From Acidobacteriota bacterium (lineage in GTDB: Bacteria; Acidobacteriota; JAAYUB01), in the NCBI GenBank assembly GCA_012517875.1, contig JAAYUB010000175.1, positions 1 through 56,873 on the forward strand: a stretch of 56,873 bases of DNA, written 5' to 3'. Numbering within the stretch: position 1 is the stretch's first letter; every line of letters begins with the position of its first letter. Below, in pieces: positions 1,911-26,546 of this stretch. The notes beneath the pieces were generated by a model. It was not told the DNA's origin and made no database searches. It saw nothing but the letters and a program-made list of their open reading frames with translations. A program made the position numbers and the translations under genes.

Positions 1911-4421
1911 TCAGGGCAGCTCGCGCTGGCCGGTGCGCGTCAGTCGGTCCTGCGCGATATCATACCGGTAGCTGAACTCGGTCCCGCAACAGGATCCGCT
2001 GAAGGAAAAAACGGCCGGACCTTCCCAGCCGATAAACCGGTGGATCCTGGACGGATCACCGGCACGGAGAGGGCGATCGTAGGCGCCCATGTCCCGCCAC
2101 GGTTTTCGCCAATCGATCCAGAGATGCCCGCTGCTGTGTACCCAGTCGGCGGCGCGGAAGATCTTGAATCCGTCCCATTGACTGGTCAGAATGACCGCGT
2201 ATCGGCCATCGGGTGACCACACCTGGAAAAACCAGCTGCCCAGCATGGTTTCATCCGTGGGTATCCGATCAAACTCGCCGGTGACCGTATGCAGGATATA
2301 GACTGAACTTGTGGCCACCGGCTGGGGCGGCACCAACAGGAGGCTGTCAGGCGGTTCATCGGTCGTGAACACCGCCGCCAGCGGATAGATCGGATTGGCG
2401 ATGACAGCCATCACCGTCTCCATGAAGCGGACGGTGAAAGTGGTGCCGTCTGCATGCCGGATCTGCAGCTCCGAGGCTCCCATCTTGCGCACGTCCAGCG
2501 GCGCTGTGGCCTCAGCCGGCGGACCCGCTGGCGGCCAGGTCAGCGACAGGCCACCAGCCAAGATGAGGGCGACGATTTGGAACAGCATCCACACTTTCAT
2601 GACACCGGCACCTGGTTCCATTCTATCCCGATACTCACTAGGATGCGGGGGGGGGAGTTCAGACTGATCAGATGCGGAGATGCGGCTTGGCGTTTGCTTC
2701 TTCCGATAGTGGGCGACGAGCGGATGGATACAGACGATGGCAAACCCGAGTGCGGCGAGCAGGCTCACCCACGCCGCGGCGAGGCGCAGCGGTGTGGCAC
2801 CGAAGCGGATTTCCAGGGTATGACGTCCGGCGGGGACGGCAACGAGGAGTTTTCCCGTACCTGATTCCGCGGTCACCGGGAGCGTCAAACCCTGTTCGTT
2901 GCGGGCGGACCAGCCGGAATAGTACCAGGTGCGCAGCGCGATGGCGCCGGATGTCGCCGCCTGGATGTCGATGCGCCGACGCTCGGATTCCCAGGCGATG
3001 ACTTTCCCGCTGATCTGTCCACGAGCCACGGTCACCAGGGCGTCGTCTGCGCGCTGCGGTGTGAGCTCGGAACCCCGGGGTGGATAATCGGCCGGCAGCC
3101 GCCGGAATGCAACAATCTGCTTGAGAATGAGGTGGGGGGGGGCAAACCCGTTCATCTGGATGCAAGATAGGCTGAGCATGCCCATCAGCAGGGTCAGAAC
3201 CAGACAGAAGCCGGCAAAGGCATACCGCACCCACCCGAAGCGGTTCTTGGACCGCCACACCACGGCCAATGCCAGCGCGGTGATGGCGCTGCCGGACACG
3301 GCGAGATGGTCCAGCAGCCGCCAGGGGAGTTGGAGAGTCGCCAAGGCGGGAATTCCCTCCCACAACCACCGCGAGGCGGGCGAGGCCAGGAACACCGCCT
3401 CGACGGTGATCATCGAAACGAGCTGGAGAAGGCCGTTGAACACCCCTTGCCCGGATTTGGAAGAGCCTCGATTCATCACCAGAATCAGCCCCATCCCCAC
3501 GACAGCCAGAGCCAGGGGAAACAGCGCCATGCGTTGGAACAGGTGCTGGAGCGCGGGATCCTCCCACGCGCCGGGTGTCATGAATATAAAGTTGCCCGCA
3601 TAGACGTTCTGGCCGGCTTGTGGCAGCGTCACGAGGTGTCGCTCAGCCAGGGCGGGCATCAGATAAACGGCTGAGATTGACATCGCCACCGCGGCACCGG
3701 CGGTCACTCGGATCAGAGTGTCCAGACGGCGGCTTCTCCCGGTTTCGAATACCAGCCAGACGGACACCAGCGCCAACGCCAGCACGGTGAACGGCAAGTT
3801 CAGGAGCAGCATGGCCGCCACGGAAATCGCCCAGCCGCGGACAGGCCGGCTCAGCCAGCCATCGCTGCGAGGTTGGCTCGCAATGCGCCGAAGTGAATCC
3901 AGGGCCCAGGGAAACACGCAACCGGCTGCGTAGGCGGGGAACAGCCCGGCGGCGTGGAGTTCGAAAACACGGAATGGCGCCACCAGGGTGAGTGCGACGC
4001 CGGCCGCCGCCCACGGTCCGGCCGGCTCCGACAGCAGCCGATACACTCCGGCAAACCCGATGATCGTCAGGAGTGCCAGGACCAGGTAAAAGCCGACCAG
4101 AATGTTGCCGCCGCACAACCATGAGGCAAGGCCGGCACAATAAAACAACCCGGGCGGGTAGAAGATCATGGTGGGGGCGCCGAAGCCCTCGTTGAAATCG
4201 GCCAGCCATCGTGGATACACGTTCCCCTCAGCCAGACTCGCCCGAAATTGATCGGCCATGGCCAGGTGGATATGCAGGTCGTGGGATAACGGAATGCCCT
4301 GCAGGAGGGGCGCCATCAGCAGAATCGCCGCCATCAGGGGCAAAGTGATATTCCATCTGATTGGCGATGTGAAAATCCGGAACATGTTAGCCACGGATCG
4401 CATGGTACACCAGGAACCCAT
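1911..4421 (-). CDS. PTPS-related polytopic membrane protein, apparently fused to a secreted protein
   Basis: An 836-residue ORF. Residues 1 to about 590 form a multi-pass membrane protein of the '6-pyruvoyl-tetrahydropterin synthase-related' type (PF10131-like, GT-C-like topology): first membrane segment near residue 20, then an acidic loop with SHDLHIHL and a YPPGLFY segment, many further membrane spans, and a short beta-rich part ending with a last span near 550-575. Residues from about 608 begin MKVWMLFQIVALILAGGLSL, a typical signal peptide, followed by some 200 soluble residues with WSPDGRYAVI like a beta-propeller blade. The junction is a nine-C tract on the coding strand; one extra C would end the first part at a TAG and leave a second gene from 2600 to 1911. 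The start at 4421 is preceded by GGAGG. Molecular function unknown; possibly glycosyl transfer. Confidence 0.7.
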   Translation of the reverse strand: MGSWCTMRSVANMFRIFTSPIRWNITLPLMAAILLMAPLLQGIPLSHDLHIHLAMADQFRASLAEGNVYPRWLADFNEGFGAPTMIFYPPGLFYCAGLASWLCGGNILVGFYLVLALLTIIGFAGVYRLLSEPAGPWAAAGVALTLVAPFRVFELHAAGLFPAYAAGCVFPWALDSLRRIASQPRSDGWLSRPVRGWAISVAAMLLLNLPFTVLALALVSVWLVFETGRSRRLDTLIRVTAGAAVAMSISAVYLMPALAERHLVTLPQAGQNVYAGNFIFMTPGAWEDPALQHLFQRMALFPLALAVVGMGLILVMNRGSSKSGQGVFNGLLQLVSMITVEAVFLASPASRWLWEGIPALATLQLPWRLLDHLAVSGSAITALALAVVWRSKNRFGWVRYAFAGFCLVLTLLMGMLSLSCIQMNGFAPPHLILKQIVAFRRLPADYPPRGSELTPQRADDALVTVARGQISGKVIAWESERRRIDIQAATSGAIALRTWYYSGWSARNEQGLTLPVTAESGTGKLLVAVPAGRHTLEIRFGATPLRLAAAWVSLLAALGFAIVCIHPLVAHYRKKQTPSRISASDQSELPPPHPSEYRDRMEPGAGVMKVWMLFQIVALILAGGLSLTWPPAGPPAEATAPLDVRKMGASELQIRHADGTTFTVRFMETVMAVIANPIYPLAAVFTTDEPPDSLLLVPPQPVATSSVYILHTVTGEFDRIPTDETMLGSWFFQVWSPDGRYAVILTSQWDGFKIFRAADWVHSSGHLWIDWRKPWRDMGAYDRPLRAGDPSRIHRFIGWEGPAVFSFSGSCCGTEFSYRYDIAQDRLTRTGQRELP
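2647..2655. repeat. Homopolymer G9/C9 at the domain junction
   Basis: Nine consecutive G on the plus strand, C on the coding strand of the membrane-protein gene. It sits exactly between the membrane part and a signal-peptide-like segment. With ten C the reading frame meets TAG at 2638-2640, followed 17 and 38 bases later by ATGs of the second part. Confidence 0.95.
3134..3142. repeat. Homopolymer G9/C9 inside the membrane-protein gene
   Basis: A second nine-base G run (C on the coding strand) in the same gene, encoding part of FAPPHLIL. The frame continues with sensible protein on both sides, so this run appears correctly counted. Confidence 0.95.
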
Positions 4422-5534: not shown

Positions 5535-5659
5535 CATCTCCGCCATGAAATAACCCTTGAGACTCGTGCAGGAGTAAAAGTAGTAAATCAAATCTCCGGT
5601 TAAACAACTGGCCGTCCGATCTCGTTTAATTAGGGTAGACATTTTGCGGGAGGTTGGCC

Positions 5660-6469
5660 ATGTACCGATGGGCACGTTGCATCATGCTGGGACTGGCGGT
5701 TTGCGTCGGGTGGGCGGCGGCCGGGGAACTGACCGCACCGAAACGCCTGACTTTTGTCATCCAGCAGGATGCGGATCCCGCCATGACCTCGTTAAATTTC
5801 AATAAGGGGTTCGCCGCACTACTCAAGCGGCTGCCTCCGGATTGCCAGGTGAGCATCTTCGGGTTTTTCGGTAACACGGTATACCCCGTGCGGCATGGAA
5901 AGGCCGGGGAACTGGACTGGCCTTCGAAGGGGCTGGAGTTCCTGGCCGCCAACCAGAATGCGGTGCCGTTCAAAGATCTGCTGGCTATACTCGCGCATTG
6001 GCGGATCCAGGATCAGCCGGTCTTTTTCATCAGCAATTGCCGCTGCCTGGCCATGTTCCAGAGCATGCAGCTCGAAGGCACCAATGTGGATAAACACGTG
6101 AACATCAAACCGTCCGTTGTCTCGGCGGTGGAGAAGCCGGTGATCATGGACCAACAGGATTTCGATCCCAAGCGGTACGAACCGCTGGCCAAATTAAACA
6201 GATACCTGAAGGAAAACAAGATCCGATTGTATGGTTTTTACGTGCGGAAAAACACAGAAAAGGATCTCTTCGCCGAAGACGACCGAACTGGTTCCTCGTT
6301 TTTCACCGGTGACATGCGCTACTTCCAAAACCGCCAAATCAACCGGGACCTGATGCTGGACAGTCTAGGCCTCACCGCCCTACACTGGCTTACCATCGAA
6401 TCGGGCGGAGCTCTGTTCTACGATTTCCCTTCATTTAACGGTGTATTCCAGTCACTGGATCAGAAATAA
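5660..6469 (+). CDS. Secreted protein with degenerate VWA-like fold
   Basis: A 269-residue protein with a signal peptide (residues 1-21, cleavage after AAAG). The order of segments imitates a von Willebrand A domain: LTFVIQQDADPAM (first strand and metal site), VSIFGFFGNT, PVFFISN, IRLYGFYVRK and LHWLTIESGGALFYD. The DxSxS metal site is replaced by QDADPAM, so it would not bind metal in the usual way. GGGAGG precedes ATG 5660 at good spacing; an in-frame TTG two codons earlier would sit on that site. Acidobacteriota carry many VWA-related secreted proteins; the fold assignment is inference from motif order only. Confidence 0.6.
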   Translation: MYRWARCIMLGLAVCVGWAAAGELTAPKRLTFVIQQDADPAMTSLNFNKGFAALLKRLPPDCQVSIFGFFGNTVYPVRHGKAGELDWPSKGLEFLAANQNAVPFKDLLAILAHWRIQDQPVFFISNCRCLAMFQSMQLEGTNVDKHVNIKPSVVSAVEKPVIMDQQDFDPKRYEPLAKLNRYLKENKIRLYGFYVRKNTEKDLFAEDDRTGSSFFTGDMRYFQNRQINRDLMLDSLGLTALHWLTIESGGALFYDFPSFNGVFQSLDQK

Positions 6470-6626: not shown

Positions 6627-7073
6627 CTACTTCAGAGGTTCCGCCGGAGGCGCAGCCGGTTTAGCATCGTCGTGCGCGCACCGGCCAGCGCTAGTCCTGC
6701 AGCAGGCGGATTTGGCGGTAGCACGCATGGCATCGACCGTCTTGCCGCACGCCGCCTTGTCATGGGCGCATTTGGCGTTGGCCGTCATACCGCAGGCGGC
6801 TTTGGCATGTTCGCATTTGCCGTCGCCACTCTTACACTTCTCACACATGCAGTCGGCGCAATTGCAGGGGTTGCACTTGCACTCCACACACTTGCACTTG
6901 TCGCATTTGCAATCCGTGCATTTGCAATCGGGACATTCGCACTTGGCATCGGTCTTGACGACAGCGCTCGAGGGATTCACAACCGATGTGGCCGTCTCCT
7001 GGGCCAGCAGGCCTCCAGTCAGCCATGCGGCCACAGCGATGGTCAGACCGAGCACGATAAGTTTCTTGCGCAT
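6627..7073 (-). CDS. Exported metallothionein-like protein with CxCxx pentad array
   Basis: A 148-residue protein with a signal peptide (residues 1-24, AQ after the cleavage region). Cysteines at 45, 47, 50, 52, 55, 57, 60, 62, 65, 67, 70, 72, 75, 77 and 80 form seven uninterrupted CxCxx pentads plus a final Cys. A second unit KC(E/A)H(A/D)KAACG occurs at 86-95 and 101-110, with a weaker third copy ending CAHDDAK. In all 22 Cys and three His in these units: a likely soft-metal (Zn, Cu, Cd) binder outside the cytoplasm. AGGAGG lies eight bases before the ATG. It is divergent from a histidine kinase/NtrC-type pair and has a sigma-54-like promoter, the position occupied by zraP in enterobacteria. 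Not homologous to ZraP by eye; I know no named family for it. Confidence 0.85.
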   Translation of the reverse strand: MRKKLIVLGLTIAVAAWLTGGLLAQETATSVVNPSSAVVKTDAKCECPDCKCTDCKCDKCKCVECKCNPCNCADCMCEKCKSGDGKCEHAKAACGMTANAKCAHDKAACGKTVDAMRATAKSACCRTSAGRCAHDDAKPAAPPAEPLK

Positions 7074-7159
7074 TGAAATATCCTCCTATTGATTTGAAAT
7101 GAGCTGATGTTCTCTGAATCTAAATCTACTGGTATCGAGTTGCAGACATCTTACCTTAA

Positions 7160-7174
7160 GCATGCACGATGCCA
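7160..7174 (-). promoter_or_regulatory. Sigma-54 (-24/-12) promoter candidate for the Cys-rich gene
   Basis: On the minus strand TGGCAT-CGTGC-ATGC, preceded by T and followed by TT, against the consensus YTGGCAC-N5-TTGCW. The invariant GG and GC doublets have the required spacing. The predicted start near 7149 gives a leader of about 75 bases. The neighbouring regulator carries the GAFTGA loop needed to activate this holoenzyme. Confidence 0.6.
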
Positions 7175-7288
7175 AACACAACGAAACGACCAGTTCGCCA
7201 GGAAACATTAAAAGAACAAATAAAAACAATGACATACGAGAATCATCATCGATTTGCGTTTGCGAAAGTTCAATGAAATGTGTAGAAT

Positions 7289-7307
7289 ATTGTTCAAGTT
7301 GAGCAAT
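7289..7307. promoter_or_regulatory. Candidate activator site 1 (TCAA-N-TTGA core)
   Basis: ATTGTTCAA-G-TTGAGCAAT, an inverted repeat with nine-base arms and one mismatch. It lies about 140 bp upstream of the predicted sigma-54 start, the usual distance for an NtrC-family enhancer site, and shares its core with the palindrome at 7349-7359. Confidence 0.4.
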
Positions 7308-7348
7308 AATATTCAGAATCAGTTTGCTATCGTGATAGGCACGATCGT

Positions 7349-7367: not shown

Positions 7368-8426
7368 ATGTCAGGCAAAGCAATCCGAATGATCATCGTG
7401 CTGGGCGTCCTGGCCACGACCGTTTCGATCCATTATCTGCTGCCGCATGCTGGCTTTTTTCATGCCATGCACCTGATTCACCGGCGGCTGTGCTACATTC
7501 CCGTGATTCTCGGCGCTCTCTGGTTCGGCCTGTGGGGTGGGGTGTTGACCGCGGCGGCCATTTCACTGGCTGTTCTCCCGCTGGTCTTCGGCATGCAATG
7601 CTCGCTCTGGGAAAACCCGGAAGTCGTTGAAATCGTGTTTTATTTCGGCATCGGCACGCTGATGGGATTCATCGTTTCCCAAGGGGAGCGGCAGCGCCGA
7701 CACAAGGAAGCGCTCGAAAAGGAACTGGTGACAGCGGAGCGTCTCGCCACCGCCGGTCGCACGGCGGCCGGAATAGCCCATGAGGTGCGGACTCCGCTCG
7801 GCTCGATTCAAGGCGCTGCGGAAATTCTGGCGGAGGATTATCCGGACGATCATCCCCGGCGACCGTTCTTCGACATCCTCAACCGTGAGATCCGTCGTCT
7901 GGCTCGCGTGATGGAGGACTTCCTGGACCTTCACCGTCCGCTCAACCTGGCGCCACTTTCCTCAGATCTCACGGAGGTGGTTCGCGAGACCATAGGCGTG
8001 CTAGCGGCACAAGCCAATGAGCGGAACGTCCGGCTGGAATATAAGGCCCCGGAACAGCTGAAAGCGCGGTTCGATCCGGACCGCCTCCGCCAGGCGCTGG
8101 TCAACCTGGTGCAGAACGCGGTCCAGACGTCTCCGGCAAACGGTCGGGTCTGCGTGGAAGTGAGCCAACAAACTGACGGAATCCGGTTCGTGATCGAGGA
8201 TGAGGGGGCTGGCATTCCTCCGGAAAACTTGGAGCGAATCTTTGAGCCGTTCTTCTCGCGCCGTCCGGACGGTACCGGACTCGGCCTGACGCTGGCTCGC
8301 CAAATCGCCGAATCGCACGGCGGCTCGCTCACGGCGGAGAACCGTCCAGGGCAGGGGGCCCGTTTCATCCTGATGCTGCCAGCCGAGCGGCAACTGTCGG
8401 AACAGCCGGGAGGGGGTTCAGCATGA
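7368..8426 (+). CDS. Membrane sensor histidine kinase (NtrB/ZraS-like transmitter)
   Basis: 352 residues. The N-terminal 105 residues hold three to four membrane helices with very short loops (IPVILGALWFGLWGGVLTA), so there is no sizeable periplasmic sensor and the stimulus is probably sensed in the membrane; this differs from ZraS. The transmitter follows: H-box AHEVRTPLGSIQG with His138, N-box QALVNLVQNAVQTS, G1 DEGAGIPP, F-box IFEPFFSRRPDGTGLGL. A GAGG precedes the ATG. The gene overlaps the regulator by an ATGA junction, so the two are a cognate pair. It would phosphorylate Asp52 of the downstream regulator. Confidence 0.92.
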   Translation: MSGKAIRMIIVLGVLATTVSIHYLLPHAGFFHAMHLIHRRLCYIPVILGALWFGLWGGVLTAAAISLAVLPLVFGMQCSLWENPEVVEIVFYFGIGTLMGFIVSQGERQRRHKEALEKELVTAERLATAGRTAAGIAHEVRTPLGSIQGAAEILAEDYPDDHPRRPFFDILNREIRRLARVMEDFLDLHRPLNLAPLSSDLTEVVRETIGVLAAQANERNVRLEYKAPEQLKARFDPDRLRQALVNLVQNAVQTSPANGRVCVEVSQQTDGIRFVIEDEGAGIPPENLERIFEPFFSRRPDGTGLGLTLARQIAESHGGSLTAENRPGQGARFILMLPAERQLSEQPGGGSA

Positions 8427-9763
8427 GACGTGTACTTCTGGTTGAAGACGATGCCAGCCTTCGGAGCGTGATGTCCTATCACCTGCGGAAGGCGGGCTAT
8501 GAGGTGACGGAGGCCCCTGACGGAGAGCGCGCGTTGAACGCAGCCGCCGAGCGGGCTTTCGACCTCATCCTGACCGACATTCGGATGCCTCAGATGGACG
8601 GTCTGGACCTGCTTCGGCAGCTTCGGACTCGCGATTTGGACGTGCCCGTCGTGATGCTGACGGCTTTCGGAACCATCCACGATGCGGTTGAAGCCATGCG
8701 CTCGGGTGCGTGTGACTACCTGACCAAACCTGTGGAAAAAGACCAGCTGCTTCATGCCGTGGATCGAGCCCTACGGCTGGGAGACCTGGAACGGGAGAAT
8801 CGCCGTTTGCGGGAGGAGTTGGCCGGGCAGAAACCCTTGGAAGCGATCATGGGAACCAGCCCGGCGCTGCAGGAAGTGATGACCCTCCTGCGGCGGGTCG
8901 GGCCCGCGGATGTCACGGCCCTGATCACAGGAGAAAGCGGGACGGGCAAGGAACTCGCCGCACGCGCGCTGCATGCGTTGTCGCCCCGGGCCCACGCCCC
9001 CTTCGTTGCGCTCAACTGCGCCGCCGTGCCGACGGATCTTCTGGAAAGCGAGCTGTTCGGTTATCGGAAGGGAGCCTTCACCGGGGCTTCGACGGATCAC
9101 CAGGGGAAATTCCAGCAGGCTGATGCGGGAACGCTTTTCCTTGACGAGATCAGCGACATGGACATCCGGCTGCAGGCCAAGATCCTGCGCGTGATTCAGG
9201 AGCGCGTGATCGACCCGTTGGGAGGCACCAGGCCGTCGCCGGTCGATGTACGCCTCATCGCCGCCACGAATCGTGACCTCCAGACGATGGTGGCGCAGGG
9301 AAAGTTCCGCGAGGACCTGTATTACCGGCTCAACGTCATCCGCATCCACCTGCCGCCCCTCAGGGAACGGGGCGAGGACGCTCTGCTTCTCCTGGCGCAT
9401 TATTATCGACATTTCGGGGGCGGCGAACTGACCCTGCATCCGGACGCGCGTCAGGTGCTGCGGACATACGGCTGGCCTGGCAATGTCCGCGAAGTGGTCA
9501 ACCTGGGTCAGCGTCTGGCAGTACTGCACCCGCATCAAGAGGTGCGACTGATCATGCTGCCTGACGAAATGGTCAGGGACGCAGCTGCCTCGCCGCCCGT
9601 CGAGTCCGAGGCCGGTCGAGGTTTGTGGGCCATGGAACGGGATGCCGTCTGCCAGGCGTTGGTGAGCCACCATTGGAACCAAGCGGCGGCCGCCCGTGCC
9701 CTGGGAATCCCTCGGCACATCCTGATCTACCGCATGAAGAAGTACAACATCACACGACCGTGA
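8423..9763 (+). CDS. NtrC-family sigma-54-dependent response regulator
   Basis: 446 residues in three domains. Receiver (1-115) with the acidic pair Asp9-Asp10, phospho-acceptor Asp52 (LTDIRMPQMDG), Thr80 and Lys102. AAA+ activator domain (about 140-375) with Walker A GESGTGKE at 170-177, the sigma-54 contact loop GAFTGA at 217-222 and Walker B GTLFLDE at 236-242. C-terminal Fis-type helix-turn-helix (NQAAAARALGIPRHILIYRMKKY). It therefore acts only at -24/-12 promoters; one such candidate lies upstream of the divergent Cys-rich gene. Closest recognisable relatives are ZraR/AtoC-type regulators. Translationally coupled to the kinase. Confidence 0.94.
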   Translation: MRRVLLVEDDASLRSVMSYHLRKAGYEVTEAPDGERALNAAAERAFDLILTDIRMPQMDGLDLLRQLRTRDLDVPVVMLTAFGTIHDAVEAMRSGACDYLTKPVEKDQLLHAVDRALRLGDLERENRRLREELAGQKPLEAIMGTSPALQEVMTLLRRVGPADVTALITGESGTGKELAARALHALSPRAHAPFVALNCAAVPTDLLESELFGYRKGAFTGASTDHQGKFQQADAGTLFLDEISDMDIRLQAKILRVIQERVIDPLGGTRPSPVDVRLIAATNRDLQTMVAQGKFREDLYYRLNVIRIHLPPLRERGEDALLLLAHYYRHFGGGELTLHPDARQVLRTYGWPGNVREVVNLGQRLAVLHPHQEVRLIMLPDEMVRDAAASPPVESEAGRGLWAMERDAVCQALVSHHWNQAAAARALGIPRHILIYRMKKYNITRP

Positions 9764-9778
9764 TCTGGATCAAAACGG

Positions 9779-10276
9779 TTATTTTCTGTTTGGAGCCGGA
9801 GTGTCCGGCGCGTGTTTGTCGGGAATCGGCGCGGGCTCCGGTTCCTGATGCTTGTCCCGGATCATCTGGATGTACTTGTCGGGATCGTCTTTCATTTTTT
9901 TCGAGCAGTAGTCGCCGCATGAATAGAGCCGATACCCATTCACATCCACATATTTACTCGTGCGATCAACTTTCATGCCGCATGGCGGACAGAACGACTG
10001 CGGGGGCGGGGTCTTGGCCAGGGTCACCCCTTGCTTTTTCAAAGTGTCGAGATACTGTTGAGGATTCTTCTTGAATTTATCGATGCAGGCCGAGCTGCAG
10101 AAGTAGATCCGGTAGCCGTCCCGGTCGATATGAAAATGCTTGCCGATGGCTTTGTTTGAGACGGGACATCGAGTTTGCGGCCGGGCGGACTCCGCATCCA
10201 GCCCCCCCATCAGCGCCACCAGGCCGGTCAGGTACAATGCACAACCCGCTGCGCGCGTGAACCGGATCGGTCGCAT
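9779..10276 (-). CDS. Exported protein with two YHS/TRASH-like metal-binding motifs
   Basis: 165 residues from the ATG at 10276, which has a strong AGGAGG; the open frame extends further upstream but lacks a site. A signal peptide (about 1-28) is followed by two similar units: CPVSNKAIG...GYRIYFCSSAC (Cys37, Cys60, Cys64) and CPPCGMKV...GYRLYSCGDYC (Cys96, Cys99, Cys120, Cys124), each with the aromatic-Cys-x3-Cys ending of YHS/TRASH domains that bind heavy metals. The tail is Pro/Lys-rich. Probably a periplasmic metal (Cu, Ag, Hg?) binder or sensor. It is convergent with the NtrC-type regulator and divergent from the DUF302 gene. Confidence 0.78.
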   Translation of the reverse strand: MRPIRFTRAAGCALYLTGLVALMGGLDAESARPQTRCPVSNKAIGKHFHIDRDGYRIYFCSSACIDKFKKNPQQYLDTLKKQGVTLAKTPPPQSFCPPCGMKVDRTSKYVDVNGYRLYSCGDYCSKKMKDDPDKYIQMIRDKHQEPEPAPIPDKHAPDTPAPNRK

Positions 10277-10321
10277 GGCTGCCTCCTGTGAACGATGTCG
10301 CTCGGCCCAATTCCTACCATG

Positions 10322-10350
10322 ATTATACGCGACCATCCAACCGCAGGCAA
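10322..10350 (-). promoter_or_regulatory. Promoter of the YHS-motif gene
   Basis: TTGCCT-N17-TATAAT on the minus strand (-35 at 10345-10350, -10 at 10322-10327). Start predicted near 10315, 39 bases before the chosen ATG, which supports that start over the upstream ones. Confidence 0.6.
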
Positions 10351-10432
10351 TTGGGTCGCTGTGTTCGGAATCCGGATGCACCCTCAGGTCATCTGTTCGA
10401 TATGAAATTTGATCTGTCATGGAGGTCGTGAC

Positions 10433-10819
10433 ATGCCCTATTACTTCAACAAGACCGTTCAGATGCCTTTCCCGGATGTCGTCGCCAAGGTCATGGACGG
10501 TCTAGCCGCCGAGGGCTTCGGCGTGCTTTCGGACATTGACGTCAAAGCAACCATGAAGCGCAAGCTGGATATCGAATTTCAAAACTATCGGATCCTGGGC
10601 GCCTGCAACCCGCCGTTCGCATACCGCGCACTCCAAATCGAGGACAAGATTGGCACCTTGATGCCCTGCAACGTCATCGTGCAGGAGCGAACGCCGGGGA
10701 CAGTGGAGGTCGCTGCCGTCAATCCGATGGTATCCATGCAGGCAGTGGACAAACCGGAGCTGCGCGAAGTGGCCGAAGAAGTCACTGCCCGTCTTCGGCG
10801 GGTGATTGACCGGCTCTGA
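10433..10819 (+). CDS. DUF302 protein
   Basis: 128 residues from ATG 10433, which has GGAGGT seven bases upstream; the open frame begins eight codons earlier. The sequence follows the DUF302 (COG3439) pattern: DVVAKVMDGLAAEGFGVLSDIDVKATM, then YRILGACNPPFAYRALQIEDKIGTLMPC and VAAVNPMVSM. No signal peptide. DUF302 proteins are small dimeric proteins of unknown function, often found beside sulfur, metal or redox genes. It is divergent from the YHS-motif protein and just upstream of the tetR efflux operon. Confidence 0.88.
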   Translation: MPYYFNKTVQMPFPDVVAKVMDGLAAEGFGVLSDIDVKATMKRKLDIEFQNYRILGACNPPFAYRALQIEDKIGTLMPCNVIVQERTPGTVEVAAVNPMVSMQAVDKPELREVAEEVTARLRRVIDRL

Positions 10820-10877
10820 TATCGCATTCTCCTCAAAAATTCCCTCATCCTTATTCTGGACATGAACAAATAAATTA

Positions 10878-10907
10878 TTGACAATGTGAATTACCATTCA
10901 CTATTAT
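10878..10907 (+). promoter_or_regulatory. Promoter of the tetR-efflux operon
   Basis: TTGACA (10878-10883), 18-base spacer, TATTAT (10902-10907). The perfect -35 and near-perfect -10 suggest a strong promoter held in check by the two palindromes lying on it. Confidence 0.75.
10886..10901. promoter_or_regulatory. TetR operator 1
   Basis: GTGAAT-TACC-ATTCAC, a perfect inverted repeat filling the spacer between -35 and -10. Shares GTGAA-N6-TTCAC with operator 2, 22 bp away centre to centre (two helical turns). Confidence 0.7.
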
Positions 10908-10925
10908 GTGAACATTCGTTCACAT
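10906..10925. promoter_or_regulatory. TetR operator 2
   Basis: ATGTGAAC-ATTC-GTTCACAT, a perfect 20-base palindrome covering the end of the -10 box, the start point and the ATG at 10924. Because that ATG lies in the operator and GGAG at 10926-10929 serves the next one, translation most likely begins at 10936. Confidence 0.75.
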
Positions 10926-10935
10926 GGAGCATTCA

Positions 10936-11532
10936 ATGACCCAGCGTATGGATTCCAAACAAAGAAAAGAGCAGCTCATGCATCATTCGCTGGAAATCAT
11001 CTCGCGGTCGGGTCTGCGGGGTCTTAGCATGGCGGGGTTGGCCCGGCTTGTCGGGCTGGTCCCGTCGGCGATCTATCGGCACTATCCGAACAAGCAGCTC
11101 CTGATTCTGGCAATTTTTGAGCATTTGAGAGAGCATGTGTTCGCCAATATCAAGGAGGCTTGTGCCAGTGTTCAAGATCCGCTAGAGCGTTTGCGGATCA
11201 TCCTGATGCAGAACATCACGCTGATCCGGCATTTTCAGGCCATTCCGCGCATTCTCCTTTCGGACAGCGTCTATAGCGGCTCTCAGGAATGCCGTCGGAT
11301 GGCGTACGACATGATCCGATCCGTTCAGGCCAGAATTGCCAAAATCATCGTTGAGGGTCAGGTCCACGGCCAGATCCGCTCAGAATTGAATCCACATGAT
11401 GTTGCCGTCCTGTTCTGGGGAATCATGCCCCCGACGGCTATTCTGTGGATTCTGAGCAACGAGCGGTTTGATGTGAACCGCCACGTGGAACAAGCCTGGG
11501 AGCTGTTCCGTCGGGCGATCGCTACCCGATGA
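10936..11532 (+). CDS. TetR-family repressor (CecR-like position)
   Basis: 198 residues from ATG 10936, served by GGAG six bases upstream. The N-terminal helix-turn-helix reads GLRGLSMAGLARLVGLVPSAIYRHYPNKQLL, the TetR signature; the rest is an all-helical ligand/dimer domain. It is the first gene of an operon with an HlyD-type adaptor, two ABC ATPases, two permeases and TolC, the same order as E. coli cecR(ybiH)-ybhGFSR, so it probably represses that pump and itself through the two palindromes at its promoter. Inducer unknown; for CecR, antibiotic sensitivity phenotypes are known. Confidence 0.92.
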   Translation: MTQRMDSKQRKEQLMHHSLEIISRSGLRGLSMAGLARLVGLVPSAIYRHYPNKQLLILAIFEHLREHVFANIKEACASVQDPLERLRIILMQNITLIRHFQAIPRILLSDSVYSGSQECRRMAYDMIRSVQARIAKIIVEGQVHGQIRSELNPHDVAVLFWGIMPPTAILWILSNERFDVNRHVEQAWELFRRAIATR

Positions 11533-11559
11533 GAGTCTAACGCCAGATAGGAGTCAGTT

Positions 11560-12708
11560 ATGTATCGCCATGCCGTCACCGTGGTTGCTCTATGCACCCT
11601 GGCTGTTTGGATCATTGTGCTCGGAGGTTGTAGCTCGGAACATTCCGGCACAGTCCGCTTTTCAGGCAATCTTGAGGTCACAGACGCGGATGTGGGTTTC
11701 AAGATCTCCGGCCGGGTTCTGGAGCGCGCCGTATCGGAGGGGGATCTCGTCACGGCCGGCCAGCCGGTCGCGCGCCTGGAAGACGCCGACATTCGACAGG
11801 AGGTGGCCATGCGGAAAGCAGAGCTGCAGGCCGCCAGAGCCTACCTGGATGAGCTGGAGGCCGGCTCCCGGCCTGAGGTCATCGCCCAGGCGGAAGCTGC
11901 AGTCCAACGCGCCGCCGCCTGGTTGAAGGAGTTGCAGACCGGCAGCCGTCCGCAGGAGATTGCCTCGGCCGAAGCGGCCGTGGCCAGCGCCGCCGCCGAC
12001 TTTGAACGGATTCGCCAGGACTTCGAGCGGCAGCGGGCGCTCTTTCAAAAAGACGTGATCTCCGAACGGGAATTTCAGACCTATCAATCGTCATACGACA
12101 TGGCCCAAGCCCGACTCCGCGAAGCGGAGGAGCGTCTGAGCCTGATTCGGGAGGGGCCGCGCACGGAGCAGGTGGAGCAGGCCCGTGCCGCACTAAGAGA
12201 AGCAGAGGCGCGCCAGCGGGAAATTCGCAACGGCCCCCGTGCGGAGACCATCGAGCAGGCGCAGGCCCGGCTGCAGCAGGCGCGCGAGGCGTTGCAGTTG
12301 TCCGAAACTCGCCTGAGCTACACCACGATTGTTTCGCCCCTGACCGGAGTTGTGCTGACGGACAACATCGAAGCCGGCGAGATTGTGGCGCCCGGCACAC
12401 CCGTGGTCACCGTGGGTGACCTGCACCATGTCTGGCTGCGAGGGTACGTCGCTGAGACCGATCTGGGCCGGATCAAGGTGGGGCAGGCGGTGCGCGTCAC
12501 TGCGGACACGCATCCGGACAAGGTATATCGGGGCCGGGTGACGTTTATCGCCTCCGAAGCCGAATTCACGCCGCGCAGTGTACAAACCACCAAGGAACGG
12601 GTGAAATTGGTGTACCGCATCAAGGTCGATATTCCGAATCCTGACCTGGAACTCAAGCCCGGCATGCCGGCGGACGGCGAAATCGACACCGCGGGGGCCG
12701 GCCAATGA
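11560..12708 (+). CDS. HlyD-family membrane-fusion adaptor lipoprotein (YbhG-like)
   Basis: 382 residues. Lipobox LGGC with Cys24 after a hydrophobic signal, so it is probably lipid-anchored. Biotinyl-lipoyl half-domain at about 35-65 (GFKISGRVLERAVSEGDLV), a long helical hairpin with four related repeats (ELEAGSRPEVIAQAEAAV, ELQTGSRPQEIASAEAAV, IREGPRTEQVEQARAAL, IRNGPRAETIEQAQARL), then the second half-domain SPLTGVVLTDNIEAGEIVAPG and a beta-barrel part. It would bridge the ABC-2 permeases and TolC. AGGAG precedes the ATG. It overlaps the next gene by an ATGA junction. Confidence 0.93.
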   Translation: MYRHAVTVVALCTLAVWIIVLGGCSSEHSGTVRFSGNLEVTDADVGFKISGRVLERAVSEGDLVTAGQPVARLEDADIRQEVAMRKAELQAARAYLDELEAGSRPEVIAQAEAAVQRAAAWLKELQTGSRPQEIASAEAAVASAAADFERIRQDFERQRALFQKDVISEREFQTYQSSYDMAQARLREAEERLSLIREGPRTEQVEQARAALREAEARQREIRNGPRAETIEQAQARLQQAREALQLSETRLSYTTIVSPLTGVVLTDNIEAGEIVAPGTPVVTVGDLHHVWLRGYVAETDLGRIKVGQAVRVTADTHPDKVYRGRVTFIASEAEFTPRSVQTTKERVKLVYRIKVDIPNPDLELKPGMPADGEIDTAGAGQ

Positions 12709-13658
12709 CCGAAACCGTGCGCGCCAGCGAGCTGACGCGTCGATTCAACGGTCGGACCGTGGTGAATCGCGTCAACCTGGTGGTGTCGGCCGGCGAAATC
12801 TATGGCCTGGTAGGTCCCGACGGAGCGGGTAAAACCACCACCCTGCGGATGCTGGCGGCGATCCTGAATCCCACATCGGGCGACGCCTGGACGGCCGGCC
12901 GCCACACTGTGCGCGAAGCCGAGGCGGTGAAAGAACGGATCGGCTACATGAGCCAGCGCTTCGGACTGTATCCGGATCTGACGGTCATGGAAAATTTGTT
13001 GTTCTATGCGGATATCTACGGTGTCCCCCGGCAGGGCCGCGAACAGACCGTTGACCGGCTGCTTGAATTCAGCAACCTGAACCCCTTTCGGGAGCGGCGC
13101 GCCGGGCGGCTCTCGGGCGGGATGAAACAGAAACTGGCCCTGGCCTGCGCGCTCGTACACACGCCCGAAGTTCTGCTGCTGGACGAACCTACCAACGGGG
13201 TCGATCCCGTGTCCCGACGCGAGTTGTGGCGCATCTTGTACCTGCTCATGCGGGAGGGCGTGGCTGTCATTGTCACGACGGCGTATCTGGATGAGGCGGA
13301 ACGGTGCAACCGGCTGGGGCTCCTGCATAAAGGCAGACTGGTGGCCAGCGGCTCGCCGCAGGAGATCAAACAGCTCATGCGCGGCCAGATCCTGGAAGTC
13401 CGCACGTCGGATGCGCGGCGCGCTGCCGAACGGCTGCGGCGGGATCGCCCGCAGGCGGTGACTCTGTTCGGCGACCGCCTGCATGTGGTGGCCGATGCCC
13501 GGGAGTCAACCGCAGCCTGGATCAGGCGAAATCTGAGCGCGGTTGGCATTGAGGTAATGGACATTCGATCCGTGGAGCCGGCGCTTGAGGATGTGTTCAT
13601 TTCGGTATTGTCCGATTCCGAGCGGGAGCAGGCGCACGATGGCGACCGAATCCAATGA
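12705..13658 (+). CDS. ABC transporter ATPase, first of pair (YbhF N-half-like)
   Basis: 317 residues. Walker A GPDGAGKT at 37-44, signature LSGGMKQK at about 136-143, Walker B LLLDEP at 157-162, then the C-terminal extension common in ABC-2 ATPases. In E. coli the two ATPase halves are one protein (YbhF); here they are two genes overlapping by 20 bases. With the second ATPase it would power drug or amphiphile export through the downstream permeases. The H-loop position reads VTTAYLDEAE, with Tyr-Leu where His-Tyr-Met is usual, so this half may be the less active partner of a heterodimer. Confidence 0.92.
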   Translation: MTETVRASELTRRFNGRTVVNRVNLVVSAGEIYGLVGPDGAGKTTTLRMLAAILNPTSGDAWTAGRHTVREAEAVKERIGYMSQRFGLYPDLTVMENLLFYADIYGVPRQGREQTVDRLLEFSNLNPFRERRAGRLSGGMKQKLALACALVHTPEVLLLDEPTNGVDPVSRRELWRILYLLMREGVAVIVTTAYLDEAERCNRLGLLHKGRLVASGSPQEIKQLMRGQILEVRTSDARRAAERLRRDRPQAVTLFGDRLHVVADARESTAAWIRRNLSAVGIEVMDIRSVEPALEDVFISVLSDSEREQAHDGDRIQ

Positions 13659-14610
13659 AGCAGCGGTGGTGGTTACCGATCTGGTGAAGCGGTTCGGCGC
13701 GTTCACCGCAGTGGACCGGGTCAGCTTTTCCGTGCGCCGGGGGGAGATTTTCGGTTTTCTGGGACCCAACGGCGCCGGTAAATCCACCACGATCCGAATG
13801 CTGTGCGGGCTGCTCCGGCCCACCGCCGGCAGCGGCTCCGTCGCCGGTTTCGACATCTGGACGGAATCTGAACAGATTAAATCGAATATCGGGTATATGA
13901 GTCAGAAATTCTCGCTGTACGAAGACCTGACTGTGGAGGAGAACATCGACTTCTACAGCGGGATCTACCGGCTGGCCGCCGACCGGAAGACCGACCGAAA
14001 AGAATGGGTGATCCGGATGGCGGGACTGGAGGAACACCGCCGGTCGAAGACAGCCACTCTCTCGGGTGGCTGGAAACAGCGCTTGGCACTAGGATGCGCG
14101 ATTCTGCACGAACCGCCCATCCTGTTCCTCGACGAACCCACCTCCGGCGTGGATCCAAACAGCCGCCGGCGATTCTGGGAGCTCATCTATGACATGGCTG
14201 GCGCCGGCGTGACGGTATTCGTCACAACTCATTACATGGACGAAGCCGAATACTGCGACCGGGTGGGATTGATCTACCGGGGCGAGCTGATAGCCAACGG
14301 CTCGCCCATGGTTTTGAAGACGAAACACATGCCGGAGGACGTTTTGGAAATCTGGTGCGATCGGCCGCAGGAAGCCATGGCGTTGGTGGAACGCCAGCCC
14401 GGAGTCAAGGAAGCGGCCCTCTTCGGGCGGGCGATGCACGCCGTGGTTCATGATCGCGAGCTCTCCGCGACCGCCATCGCCCAGGCATTGGATGGCGCCG
14501 GCTTCCACCTGGAGCGTTTGGAACCGGTCACACCGTCGCTGGAGGATGTGTTCGTGTCCCTCATCGAGGCGCGGGACCGGCGCGACAACGGAACGGAGGC
14601 GCCGGCATGA
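13639..14610 (+). CDS. ABC transporter ATPase, second of pair (YbhF C-half-like)
   Basis: 323 residues from ATG 13639; the open frame is longer but the upstream part lies inside the preceding gene. Walker A GPNGAGKS at about 42-49, signature LSGGWKQR, Walker B ILFLDEP, and an intact H-loop TTHYMDEAE, unlike the first ATPase. Together they form the nucleotide-binding pair of an ABC-2 exporter. The C-terminal regulatory extension ends LEDVFVSLIEARDR, as is usual for this subfamily. Overlaps the permease gene by four bases. Confidence 0.92.
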   Translation: MATESNEAAVVVTDLVKRFGAFTAVDRVSFSVRRGEIFGFLGPNGAGKSTTIRMLCGLLRPTAGSGSVAGFDIWTESEQIKSNIGYMSQKFSLYEDLTVEENIDFYSGIYRLAADRKTDRKEWVIRMAGLEEHRRSKTATLSGGWKQRLALGCAILHEPPILFLDEPTSGVDPNSRRRFWELIYDMAGAGVTVFVTTHYMDEAEYCDRVGLIYRGELIANGSPMVLKTKHMPEDVLEIWCDRPQEAMALVERQPGVKEAALFGRAMHAVVHDRELSATAIAQALDGAGFHLERLEPVTPSLEDVFVSLIEARDRRDNGTEAPA

Positions 14611-15740
14611 ACCTCCGCCGTCTCTGGGCGATGGCCCGGAAAGAGTTCATCCATATTTTCCGCGATTTTCGCAGTCTGGGAATGGCGATCGCACTTCCCA
14701 TGTTTATGCTGTTGCTGTTCGGGTACGCCCTGACTCTGGATCTAGATCGCGTGCCCTTTCTCGTCTGGGATCAGCACCCATCGCCTGCCAGCCGAAACCT
14801 GGTGAGCGCATTCACCGGCTCCCGCTACTTCAAGTTGACCGGCAGCATTCGCCACTATGAGGAAGCCGTGATCGCCATCGACGAGCGTCGGGCGCAGTTC
14901 GCGCTGGTCATTCCCACGGATTTCAGCGAGCGGCTCGAAGCCGGACGGACGGCGCCGATCCAGATTCTGCTGGACGGCAGCGATGCAAACACCGCCACCC
15001 TTGTTCTCGGGTACGCCGAAGCCGTCGTCCAAGCCGCATCCGGCCGGATTGCGGTGGAAGCCACGCCACGGAAGGGCATTTCGCTGCGTTTACCCCGGCT
15101 GGAGATGCGTCCCCGGATCTGGTTCAACGAAGATATGGAGTCCCGCAATTTCATCATCCCGGGTTTGATCGCAGTGATTCTGTCGATCCTTGCCGCCCTG
15201 TTGACCTCACTGACCGTGGCCCGGGAGTGGGAAACCGGCACGATGGAGCAACTCATTTCCACACCGGTGAAGCGGATCGAAATCATTCTCGGCAAGCTGA
15301 TCCCGTATTTCGTCATCGGCATGTTCGATGTGATGCTGGCGGTGGTGCTGGGCAAGTATCTGTTCCAAGTGCCTGTCCGGGGTCGGATCGAACTCATCTT
15401 CGGTTCGGCTGCACTCTTTCTGGCCGGCGCGCTCGGGGTGGGCGTGCTGATCAGCGTCATCACTCGAGCGCAACTACTCTCCAGCCAACTGGCCATGATC
15501 GTGACCTATCTGCCGGCACTCATGCTGTCGGGTTTCGTGTTCGCCATCCGCAACATGCCGGAACCCCTGCAGTGGATCACCTACGTGGTCCCCGCGCGGT
15601 ATTTCGTCAGTCTGCTGAAAGGGATCTTCCTGAAAGGACTTCGGGTTGAGAATCTGTTCGTTGAACTGAGCCTGCTGGCAGTGTTCGCCTTGGCGATGCT
15701 GACGCTGAGCACGATCTGCTTGCGAAAAAGGTTGGACTAG
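14607..15740 (+). CDS. ABC-2 type permease (YbhS/YbhR-like), first
   Basis: 377 residues: an N-terminal membrane helix at about 25-42, a large extracytoplasmic domain of about 130 residues, then five helices in the C-terminal half, with the ABC-2 hallmark segment REWETGTMEQLISTPV after the second helix. It is about 40 percent alike by eye to the next gene, so the two probably form a heterodimeric pore. Part of the tetR-controlled efflux operon; acts in the inner membrane. Confidence 0.92.
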   Translation: MNLRRLWAMARKEFIHIFRDFRSLGMAIALPMFMLLLFGYALTLDLDRVPFLVWDQHPSPASRNLVSAFTGSRYFKLTGSIRHYEEAVIAIDERRAQFALVIPTDFSERLEAGRTAPIQILLDGSDANTATLVLGYAEAVVQAASGRIAVEATPRKGISLRLPRLEMRPRIWFNEDMESRNFIIPGLIAVILSILAALLTSLTVAREWETGTMEQLISTPVKRIEIILGKLIPYFVIGMFDVMLAVVLGKYLFQVPVRGRIELIFGSAALFLAGALGVGVLISVITRAQLLSSQLAMIVTYLPALMLSGFVFAIRNMPEPLQWITYVVPARYFVSLLKGIFLKGLRVENLFVELSLLAVFALAMLTLSTICLRKRLD

Positions 15741-15742
15741 CC

Positions 15743-16873
15743 GTGCTGGAACGAATTCGCCACATGCTCATCAAGGAGTTCATCCAGGTGCTGCGCGACC
15801 CGCGCATGCGCGGCGTGATCTTCCTGGCACCGATCTTCCAGCTGCTGGTTCTGAGCTACGCCATCACGACGGACATCCGGAACATTTCGCTGGCTGTGTT
15901 TGACCAGGACCGGACGGTCGCCAGCCGGCAACTGGTGCAACGGTTTTCGGGATCCGGGTACTTCGTCGTGGAACGCCAGCTTGTGAGCGAGAATGAAATT
16001 CGGGACATGCTGGACGGATCCGACGTTCAGATCGTCCTGCGGATCGGCCAGGGCTACGGCGGAGATATCGGCGCCGGCCGACCCGCAACCGTCCAGGTGA
16101 TTCTGGATGGAACCGACTCCAATACCGCCAGCGTGATCCTGCAGTACGCCGGACGTTTGATCGCCGACCACTCCCGCCAGATCCAACTCGAAGCCTTCCG
16201 CCGCCAGGCCGGATCGGTCTTGCCAGCCGGCCATATCGATCTGCGACCGCGCGCCTGGTTCAATCCGAACCTGGAGAGCCGCATTTACTACGTACCGGGT
16301 TTCATCGCCATCATCGTCACCCTGGTCACCCTGATGCTGACCAGCATGGCGGTGGTGCGGGAGAAGGAGATCGGCACCATGGAACAGCTCCTGGTGTCGC
16401 CCATCACGCCGTGGGAGTTCATTCTGGGCAAGTCGGTGCCGTTCGCCATCATCGCGTTTGCCGACGTCATCCTGGCAACCACCGTCGGCGTTCTCTGGTT
16501 CGATGTGCCGGTGCGGGGCAGCCTGATCCTGCTATTCCTGGCCACCGGCATCTACCTGCTGAGCACGCTCGGCATCGGGCTGCTCATCTCCACCATCAGC
16601 CGGACGCAGCAGCAGGCCATGATGACGACGTTTTTCTTTTTCATGCCGGCCATCATGCTGTCCGGGTTCATGTTTCCCATCGCCAACATGCCCGAAATCA
16701 TCCAGTGGATCACATACGCCAATCCACTGCGCTATTTTCTGGTCATCATTCGTGAGCTTTTCCTGAAAGGTATCGGATTCAACGTGTTGTGGCCCCAGCT
16801 GGTGGCGCTGCTGGTCATCGGCGTGACGACGCTCGGGTTCGCCACCCGACGGTTTAAAAAGACCATGGTCTGA
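15743..16873 (+). CDS. ABC-2 type permease (YbhS/YbhR-like), second
   Basis: 376 residues with a GTG start two bases after the previous stop. Same architecture as its neighbour: helix 1, an extracytoplasmic domain with LDGTDSNTASVIL, and a C-terminal five-helix bundle containing REKEIGTMEQLLVSPI. Ends 62 bases before the TolC start. With the first permease and the two ATPases it completes a YbhFSR-type exporter. Confidence 0.92.
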   Translation: MLERIRHMLIKEFIQVLRDPRMRGVIFLAPIFQLLVLSYAITTDIRNISLAVFDQDRTVASRQLVQRFSGSGYFVVERQLVSENEIRDMLDGSDVQIVLRIGQGYGGDIGAGRPATVQVILDGTDSNTASVILQYAGRLIADHSRQIQLEAFRRQAGSVLPAGHIDLRPRAWFNPNLESRIYYVPGFIAIIVTLVTLMLTSMAVVREKEIGTMEQLLVSPITPWEFILGKSVPFAIIAFADVILATTVGVLWFDVPVRGSLILLFLATGIYLLSTLGIGLLISTISRTQQQAMMTTFFFFMPAIMLSGFMFPIANMPEIIQWITYANPLRYFLVIIRELFLKGIGFNVLWPQLVALLVIGVTTLGFATRRFKKTMV

Positions 16874-16935
16874 CCGGAGGGACAACCGTGTGGGCCAGGA
16901 CTGCCAGTTTGTCGGCGACAGATGAGGAGGATGCG

Positions 16936-18282
16936 ATGGATCGTTTCCGCACGCTGCTTGTTGTGGGTTGCCTGATCGGAGTGCTTGCACCCGTTGGCTG
17001 GATTTGCGGCGAGACGGTGCCGGAGTCTGACCGGCTCACGCTGGCTGACTGCGTCCGGCTGGCGATCGCCCAGAATCCTCTTCGGGCGGCCAGCCGATCG
17101 GCGGTTGAGTCCGCCCGGCACGGGGTCGGGGAGGCCAGGGCGCCGTATTATCCAACTGCGGACTTCGGCACCGGTTTCAGCCGTTGGCAGCGTCACGCCT
17201 TTCTGCCCGCCGACCTGCAATCGTACATCCCGGTGGACGTGATCGGCCCCACCGATGACTGGTTCATGAGCGTCTACGCCCAGTACGTGGTGTTCGACAG
17301 CGGGGCCCGGCGGGCGGGCCTGCAAGCCGCCCGGGCGCTCGAGACGTCCGCGACGGCCGACGACGAGCAGACGCTCCGCAACCTAATCGCCCAGGTGGAA
17401 CAGGCGTTTTTCCAGTTGCTCGGTGTCCAGGCGGAACTCGACGCCGCCCGGAAAAGCCGGGATCGGGCCGGCGAGCATCTGCGGCTGGCCCAGGAGCGCA
17501 AGGCCTCGGGCAGCGTTCCGCTTCTCGATGTGCTTCGGGCGGAAGTGGAGGTGTCCAACGCCGACCTTTCGATCATCGAGGTCGAGAACAGCCGACGGAT
17601 TGTTCAAGGGAATCTGAACTCCCTCATGGGCCGGCCGGTGGAGCAGCAGCTTGAACCGGTGCCCACCACAGATCCCAGCCGCGATCCGGTGGAGATCCGG
17701 CTGGCCGATGCGATGGCTCAGGCGGTTGCGCGCCGGCCGGAGATCCGTTCGGCTGGCGCTCGAATCGTAGCCGCCCGGGCCGGGGTGACCCAGGCGAAAA
17801 GCGCCTACGGCCCCCGGGTAACCGGGGACGGGCAGTTCGGATGGCACGACGATGAGTTCGCGCCTTCCGACCAGGAATGGGTGTTCGGGCTCAGCATTCG
17901 ACTTCCGCTATTCACCGGCTTTGCCAACGAGCACCGGCTGGGGAAAGCCAAAGCCGAGGCCAGCCGGGCAGAAGCCCAGGCCGCCAGCCAGGAACTGTCT
18001 GTCCGCCGGGAAGTATGGACGGCCTACTCCATTCTGCAGAAGGCCCATGCTGCCGTGCTCACGTCGGATATACAAACTCGCCATGCGGGGGAAAGCCTGC
18101 GCTTGGCCCGGGAGCGGTACACCGTGGGCGCGAGCACCATCACAGATCTGATCGACGCGCAGACCGCACTCGCCAGGGCGGAAGCCGCCCAGGCGCGAAC
18201 GAGGTGGGAATACCAGGCCGCCCACTCGGAATTTCGTCGCGTCACTGCGACCACCGTCATTCCCCCCGATGCGATGCCCTGA
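16936..18282 (+). CDS. TolC-family outer membrane efflux protein
   Basis: 448 residues from ATG 16936, preceded by GAGGAGG; earlier in-frame codons lack a site. Signal peptide (about 1-25), then two outer-membrane-efflux repeats of about 200 residues: LTLADCVRLAIAQNPLRAASRSAVESA opens the first, and ADAMAQAVARRPEIRSAGARI the second. Helical segments alternate with short beta strands such as FGLSIRLPLF. It would form the trimeric exit duct for the HlyD/ABC pump encoded just upstream. E. coli ybhGFSR has no dedicated TolC gene, so this operon is self-contained. Confidence 0.92.
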   Translation: MDRFRTLLVVGCLIGVLAPVGWICGETVPESDRLTLADCVRLAIAQNPLRAASRSAVESARHGVGEARAPYYPTADFGTGFSRWQRHAFLPADLQSYIPVDVIGPTDDWFMSVYAQYVVFDSGARRAGLQAARALETSATADDEQTLRNLIAQVEQAFFQLLGVQAELDAARKSRDRAGEHLRLAQERKASGSVPLLDVLRAEVEVSNADLSIIEVENSRRIVQGNLNSLMGRPVEQQLEPVPTTDPSRDPVEIRLADAMAQAVARRPEIRSAGARIVAARAGVTQAKSAYGPRVTGDGQFGWHDDEFAPSDQEWVFGLSIRLPLFTGFANEHRLGKAKAEASRAEAQAASQELSVRREVWTAYSILQKAHAAVLTSDIQTRHAGESLRLARERYTVGASTITDLIDAQTALARAEAAQARTRWEYQAAHSEFRRVTATTVIPPDAMP

Positions 18283-26432: not shown

Positions 26433-26444
26433 AGTTTGAACCGT

Positions 26445-26473
26445 TATTTATATAAAAATGAAGTATATATCAA
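26445..26473 (-). promoter_or_regulatory. Promoter of the haem-motif histidine kinase
   Basis: TTGATA-N17-TAAATA on the minus strand (-35 at 26468-26473, -10 at 26445-26450). Start predicted near 26438. Confidence 0.5.
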
Positions 26474-26501
26474 ATGGCTCTCTGCGCAAGCCAAAATCTG
26501 C

Positions 26502-26531
26502 TTGAATCCGGGGTTTGAACATGGGTATGAT
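26502..26531 (+). promoter_or_regulatory. Promoter candidate of the VWA gene
   Basis: TTGAAT-N18-TATGAT. The start would lie near 26538, just at the GGAG that serves ATG 26547, which leaves a short leader; hence moderate support only. Confidence 0.35.
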
Positions 26532-26546
26532 TCATTTGGAGTAAGC

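Follow-up and report, generated by a model that had tools for sequence, protein, structure and literature searches.

Thiol-rich metal binders and the locus described here

Metallothioneins are called rare in bacteria, and SmtA and MymT are not presented as exported CxCxx proteins in the review section that deals with them (PMC7558416, section 4.3). MymT, which is needed for copper resistance, is predicted there to bind up to six Cu(I), and the legend of Figure 1 of the same review groups metallothioneins with the cytosolic copper binders. Csp1 is described in it as an exported, many-Cys bacterial Cu(I) store, which carries a Tat signal and is a pre-folded four-helix bundle (PMC7558416). A further group, the metallothioneins of Tetrahymena subfamily 7b, is made of CKCXXCKC repeats, with essentially no CC and with Lys beside most Cys (PMC1808422, PMC4862169); their fold induction is lower with Cd than with Cu (PMC1808422).

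The gene considered here lies in a 56,873-nucleotide stretch of an Acidobacteriota genome, called the window throughout, and encodes a small protein of exported type (Table 1). Like SmtA and MymT it would be a small Cys-rich metal binder, whereas these two are described neither as exported nor as CxCxx in the cited section of PMC7558416. With Csp1, as portrayed in that review, it shares the exported type and the many Cys, but its signal is Sec-type by eye, its Cys lie in CxCxx repeats and it has no family match. The traits diagnostic of the Tetrahymena 7b proteins, i.e., CKCXXCKC, no CC and Lys beside most Cys, are all found in it, at the level of pattern only: those proteins are eukaryotic, homology is not claimed, and the window protein has, in addition, a signal peptide, a Cys/His tail repeat and a sigma54-type bacterial promoter. 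A literature search over titles and abstract openings, with most subscription journals outside its coverage, returned no metallothionein of exported CxCxx type that is controlled by a two-component system with a sigma54 activator.

Table 1. Features of the Cys-rich gene and of the divergent two-component system, in window coordinates
Feature	Position	Strand	Basis or remark
Gene of the exported-type Cys-rich protein	6627-7073	-	ATG start, 148 aa; mature part of 123 residues with 22 Cys
Sec-type signal peptide, residues 1-25, without lipobox Cys	6999-7073	-	by eye
[CxCxx]7C block, residues 45-80, 15 Cys	6834-6941	-	sequence, shuffle test, G002 ortholog
Tail, 15-residue repeat KCxHxKAACGxTxxA, two good and two degenerate copies	6660-6818	-	units by eye, G002 comparison
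Ribosome-binding site AGGAGG	7082-7087	-	sequence; kept in G002
sigma54 -24/-12-like box TGGCATCGTGCATGC	7160-7174	-	top score in the window, kept in G002
Inverted-repeat activator-like site (UAS) GAATATTATT-N13-AATATTCTAC	7282-7314	-	conserved in G002; footprint at close kinase loci
Membrane histidine kinase, HisKA and HATPase_c, short His-containing N-terminal membrane region	7368-8426	+	divergent to the Cys-rich gene
NtrC-type response regulator: receiver, Sigma54_activat, HTH_8	8423-9763	+	domain matches
Protein with two YHS/TRASH-like domains	9779-10276	-	Pfam YHS 1.5e-11; kept in G002; possible partner

A pentad block followed by a longer tail repeat

The protein starts with a predicted signal peptide, MRKKLIVLGLTIAVAAWLTGGLLA|QE, whose cleavage site was placed by eye from the sequence; by eye, too, the N-terminus lacks a twin-Arg motif. 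A short linker leads to the pentad block, which a first-pass annotation of this DNA had read as a pure repeat, (CxCxx)7, and which is just that: 15 Cys in 36 residues follow a strict 2,3 alternation through the pentads CECPD, CKCTD, CKCDK, CKCVE, CKCNP, CNCAD and CMCEK, up to a closing Cys. The longest perfect CxCxx run in the 123-residue mature part spans 37 positions, as against 20 for the best of 100,000 residue shuffles. Fourteen of the 15 pentad Cys are in CxC, CC is absent, and Lys stands between the two Cys in four of the seven pentads (six of seven in G002, a genome of the same genus). In other words, this is a small protein with many Cys in CxC/CxxC, as is typical of the metallothionein class.

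After the closing Cys comes the tail, in which the same annotation had seen a second repeat, KCxHxKAACG. KCEHAKAACG and KCAHDKAACG are indeed present, but the repeat is better described by the 15-residue unit of Table 1, the copies in the window being KCEHAKAACGMTANA, KCAHDKAACGKTVDA, a third without the first Cys that G002 has, and a fourth that is cut off; judged by eye, the copies are more regular in G002. The interval originally given for both repeats, 6700-6960, takes in the pentads and the first tail units, but the full gene extends over 6627-7073.

No model of Pfam or NCBIfam, those for metallothioneins included, matches the protein at E<=1, and the same holds for the curated ZraP model. 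The PDB gave a single weak hit, an McbG-like protein at E 0.51, and a plasmid search yielded nothing usable. The AlphaFold model, built on an alignment of two sequences, has a mean pLDDT of 41.6 and is uninformative on the fold, both as regards a four-helix bundle like that of Csp1 and as regards the single structural unit per pentad suggested in the first-pass annotation.

Age of the pentad array

Among 60 genomes searched, the own one included, genes for the Cys-rich protein are found only in the own genome (G000) and in G002; neither G001, of the same genus, nor G003, of the same family, has one. A whole-genome pattern scan of the phylum likewise returned the pentads in two of 396 genomes, both of this genus. 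The pattern used bars non-Cys codons starting with T, so that this count and those of the other pattern scans are lower bounds.

The G002 ortholog is 78% identical to the window protein, with an overall dN/dS of 0.17 that falls to 0.08 in the pentads and 0.03 in the signal peptide, where a single residue is changed, and rises to 0.24 in the tail, which is variable between the two species and has a 14-residue gap in the window. Recent growth of the repeat, as proposed from its regularity in the first-pass annotation, is contradicted by this comparison. Both species have seven pentads; the two letters after the second Cys agree in order, pentad by pentad (PD, TD, DK, VE, NP in one and HP in the other, AD, EK), and all 15 Cys are kept. 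Moreover, adjacent pentads resemble each other no better than pentads in shuffled order do (0.463 against a mean of 0.449, the observed value being reached in 45% of shuffles). On these grounds, recent tandem growth is rejected for the two species available. Since the number, the letters and the Cys are shared and dN/dS is low, the array predates the split between the window species and G002 and has been held by selection, in a test limited to two sequences. The annotation had named a constant repeat number together with a metal-free disulfide fold as what would speak against its proposal; the former half, constancy, is what these two species show.

A divergent two-component system of the sigma54 type

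On the opposite strand, the gene faces a membrane kinase and an NtrC-type regulator. The best named models for the kinase are ZraS and AtoS, at 210 bits each and far under their cut-offs (479 bits for ZraS), and the regulator reaches 360 bits against a ZraR cut-off of 760. The HY, H and HRRxCY motifs of the kinase membrane region are common to its close clade. The layout is reminiscent of E. coli zraP-zraSR, with an exported metal binder divergent to a kinase and sigma54-regulator pair, but the window protein is without a family match.

The sigma54-like box of the Cys-rich gene ranks first of 113,714 window positions and is the only one at or above 0.865 on our own score. It departs from TGGCACN5TTGC at two positions; with two mismatches allowed, 46 matches occur in the window as against 62 by chance; as there is no window-wide excess, the weight rests on conservation. 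The strict inverted-repeat pattern has a single match in the 4.02-Mb genome, at 7282-7314. The rpoN gene is found in both G000 and G002, so the components expected of a sigma54 two-component regulon, namely kinase, NtrC-type regulator, -24/-12-like box, UAS-like site and rpoN, are all present by sequence.

Beyond the regulator lies the YHS protein, whose start was set where the G002 protein starts (the longest ORF is 9779-10420); no sigma54-like match with two mismatches or fewer occurs just upstream of this gene. A YHS domain has been reported as a probable copper sensor (PMC4626032).

Most close kinase relatives face copper-efflux-type genes

At E<=1e-55 the kinase has matches in 24 of the 396 genomes of the phylum, 22 of them besides the window and G002. 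The eight closest relatives outside the genus (48-56% identity) come from four genera of one family (f4), and because of this shared family these loci are not independent. At six of the eight (G022, G108, G135, G007, G035, and G126) the divergent neighbour is a cusC-like gene, with the contigs of G022 and G135 stopping short of any cusA or cusB. G099 has a copper ATPase in this position and a cusC-like gene after it; at G059 less than 0.5 kb of contig is left, and no divergent neighbour can be read. Among the 14 more distant kinase loci, nine carry cus-like genes or heavy-metal ATPase genes within the stretch that was fetched; at five (G241, G172, G202, G103, and G387) it contains no copper genes. 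As a control, such genes were counted within 1.5 kb on either side: they occur at 10 of 22 ortholog loci versus none of 24 loci of other kinases.

The type of these efflux genes can be read in part from models. The RND pump of G007 scores 1062 bits against TIGR00914 (cut-off 701), and 1008 bits against E. coli CusA as compared with 479 against ZneA. In the alignment it keeps the methionines at CusA positions 573, 623, and 672, and is thus of the CusA type by score as well as by these three residues. The ATPases of G099, G144, G321, and G028 pass the copper-ATPase model TIGR01511. Further away, a 38% relative on plasmid pPRO1 of Pelobacter propionicus, where kinase and regulator are likewise related, lies directly upstream of a TolC-adaptor-CusA/CzcA operon; there, unlike in the window, the operon is downstream and not divergent, and no sigma54 box above 0.8 precedes TolC, i.e., there is no strong box.

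A regulatory footprint is shared as well. A UAS-like repeat, TGnAnAnTATT...ATATTCTACA, together with a divergent-strand box whose score is 0.87-0.92, is found at nine of the ten loci made up of the window, G002 and the eight close relatives, only G059 being negative for both elements; by chance, such a box is met in 96 of 1638 (5.9%) one-strand 423-bp stretches of f4 loci. Five loci (the window, G002, G007, G035, and G126) have an unambiguous box, which scores at least 0.88 and precedes the longest ORF start. The boxes of G022 and G108 score only 0.87, and those of G135 and G099 lie at or inside the longest divergent ORF, so that a later in-frame start, present in both, is needed. At G007 and G035 the equivalents of the -24/-12-like box stand before cusC: a related kinase and regulator go with UAS and sigma54 elements that are similar and likewise divergent, but the output there is an RND efflux operon. 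In contrast to the close loci, eight more distant ones that were scanned have no UAS, and a box in one only (G344); the shared regulatory site therefore belongs to the close clade.

On the kinase strand, too, boxes score 0.85 or more at eight of the ten close loci, in G002 and G099 because the box is palindromic. This makes a box alone unspecific, or sigma54 may drive the kinase operon as well. In G007, G035, G135, and G059 (L159, L160, L193, and L195), the kinase strand has a sigma54-like box scoring 0.88-0.91 some 33 bases ahead of the kinase start, which makes self-regulation of the operon possible in these four.

As would be expected of a copper- or silver-responsive regulon, close relatives of the regulator are thus found next to copper efflux genes in seven of eight cases by position (the eighth being unreadable), and the promoter elements recur at nine of ten loci by footprint, five of them unambiguous. 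Given these shared neighbours and the footprint, the Cys-rich gene occupies the slot that copper-efflux-type genes hold in the close clade.

Copper pumps in the own genus

No ATPase of the TIGR01511 type was found in G000, G001, or G002, which form one genus, and one was found in their family relative G003; the same model has matches in all 14 control genomes, 13 of them over the cut-off. G000 and G002 each have a single RND match over the TIGR00914 cut-off, and it is without the three CusA methionines, in a check confined to the strongest RND match of each genome (there are weaker matches too, and a second strong one in G001). As these genomes are incomplete (about 96% for G000 and 90% for G002), the absence of a copper ATPase and of CusA is unproven. 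With no copper ATPase and no CusA-type strongest pump found, the Cys-rich protein could be a main copper defence.

Pentad proteins elsewhere

A contig pattern scan returned at least 116 pentad loci, in 117 ORF frames, of which three were taken to be truly coding (L119, L094, and L098). These have 15-base identities of 0.56-0.71, the next value being 0.79, and the others were classed, by reading, as 15-base DNA tandem repeats seen in arbitrary frames. In the phylum of L119 the pattern occurs in three of 296 genomes, one of which (G679) was judged a tandem repeat, and in the phylum of G692 in one of 395, the centre genome itself, again a tandem repeat.

The L119 protein, from Ignavibacteria Ch128a, has a signal-like N-terminus and is fused to two YHS/TRASH domains, the same domain pair as in the YHS protein of the window. 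In G445, a 52-aa pentad peptide ending in CTCVVCTCGTCTCHNCTCNPCSCGSKSC has an AraC-type regulator as one neighbour and a multicopper oxidase as the other (L170, 4555-4713, - strand); counted from the first ATG, it has no signal by eye and is perhaps a small copper metallothionein. Both are analogues of the window protein, with no claim of homology.

The L119 pentad protein is one of two Cys-rich proteins with signal-like starts, encoded at 488-1742 and 1914-4388, directly before cytochrome bd genes (cydB by eye). The two coding loci from rumen Bacteroidales (L098, 5101-5532; L094, 1666-2161) have CECDPCECGQCKC-type pentads and long Ala/Lys/Glu tails, and the L098 N-terminus resembles PG1828 lipoproteins (32.6 bits, cut-off 50).

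Possible functions of the Cys-rich protein

The function that we consider probable is that of an exported, metallothionein-like periplasmic chelator of Cu(I), Ag(I) or both. The kinase would sense these ions by way of the short membrane region that contains His, and would phosphorylate the sigma54 activator, which would then bind the inverted repeat and fire the -24/-12 promoter. The 148-aa protein would be made and exported, its CKCxx repeats presumably wrapping the metal as thiolate clusters, and its Cys/His/Lys tail could bind further metal or serve for docking. The metallothionein-like character suggested in the first-pass annotation fits the independent evidence of context and is supported by it, with copper or silver as the likeliest metal.

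This assignment of the metal can be questioned, as thiolate clusters bind several metals. The effector differs from those of the relatives, so the kinase here could sense another metal, and a zinc or other signal is possible because ZraS and AtoS are the best named kinase models. It is nonetheless unlikely that the protein is an exported thiol chelator for a different soft metal (Zn, Cd, Pb, Hg, or As) under a kinase whose specificity changed along with its target. ZraS among the two best models would suit such a chelator, as would the finding that the only strong metal RND pump in G000 is not CusA-type, but efflux genes of the Cu/Ag type are the divergent neighbours at all seven close loci that can be read, the window shares UAS and promoter with these loci, and CKCxxCKC is the pattern of the Tetrahymena copper metallothioneins. 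Rather improbable, too, is a role as an accessory of the kinase in the manner of ZraP for ZraSR, buffering metal near the sensor and feeding back on it with little bulk detoxification. Predicted export, the zraP-like divergent layout and the fact that the one strict UAS match of the genome falls between the Cys-rich gene and the kinase agree with it; however, neither Pfam nor NCBIfam has a family that the protein matches at E<=1, and in the relatives this slot is held by efflux genes and by no accessory.

The oxidising conditions of a periplasm may turn thiols into disulfides, which counts against a chelator, and export to an oxidising compartment would equally suit a metal-free, disulfide-rich structural or redox protein of the cell surface, on which the AlphaFold model is silent. 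Such a protein would hardly be expected to be built of pure CxCxx, with Lys beside the Cys and CC absent, or to sit in a copper-type regulatory slot, and the pentad protein of L119 is fused to YHS domains; we regard this reading as very unlikely. Finally, all but three of the at least 116 pattern loci having been read as 15-base DNA repeats, the open reading frame might be suspected of being a chance product or a DNA tandem repeat and no conserved gene. The comparison with G002 refutes this and leaves it next to no credence: DNA periodicity is lower here (0.63 at lag 15), dN/dS is 0.08-0.17, and the ribosome-binding site, signal peptide and promoter are all kept.

Taking the protein as a Cu(I)/Ag(I) chelator, we tentatively suggest an exchange of effectors, in which a copper-responsive sigma54 circuit may have kept its sensor, activator site and promoter while its output passed from CusCBA/CopA efflux to an exported chelator resembling a copper metallothionein. 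This would have happened in a probably diderm lineage apparently without CopA and a CusA-type pump, where copper would be met by chelation outside the cytoplasm and not by export. If true, this would clearly exemplify a resistance circuit whose output has moved from efflux to chelation. The pentads would also be a candidate for a simple, regular and natural thiol repeat for the capture of Cu(I)/Ag(I).

Other genes of the window

The first 19 kb of the window are syntenic in G002. Convergent to the Cys-rich gene, positions 5654-6469 (+ strand) encode a 271-aa protein without Pfam or NCBIfam match, which is 92% identical in G002. On the other side, 10409-18282 holds DUF302 and TetR genes and then what appears by eye to be an exporter operon (HlyD, two ABC ATPases, two permeases and a TolC-like protein), syntenic in G002 as well. 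Further along, a VWA protein (26436-27542) passes the acidobacterial model TIGR03436.
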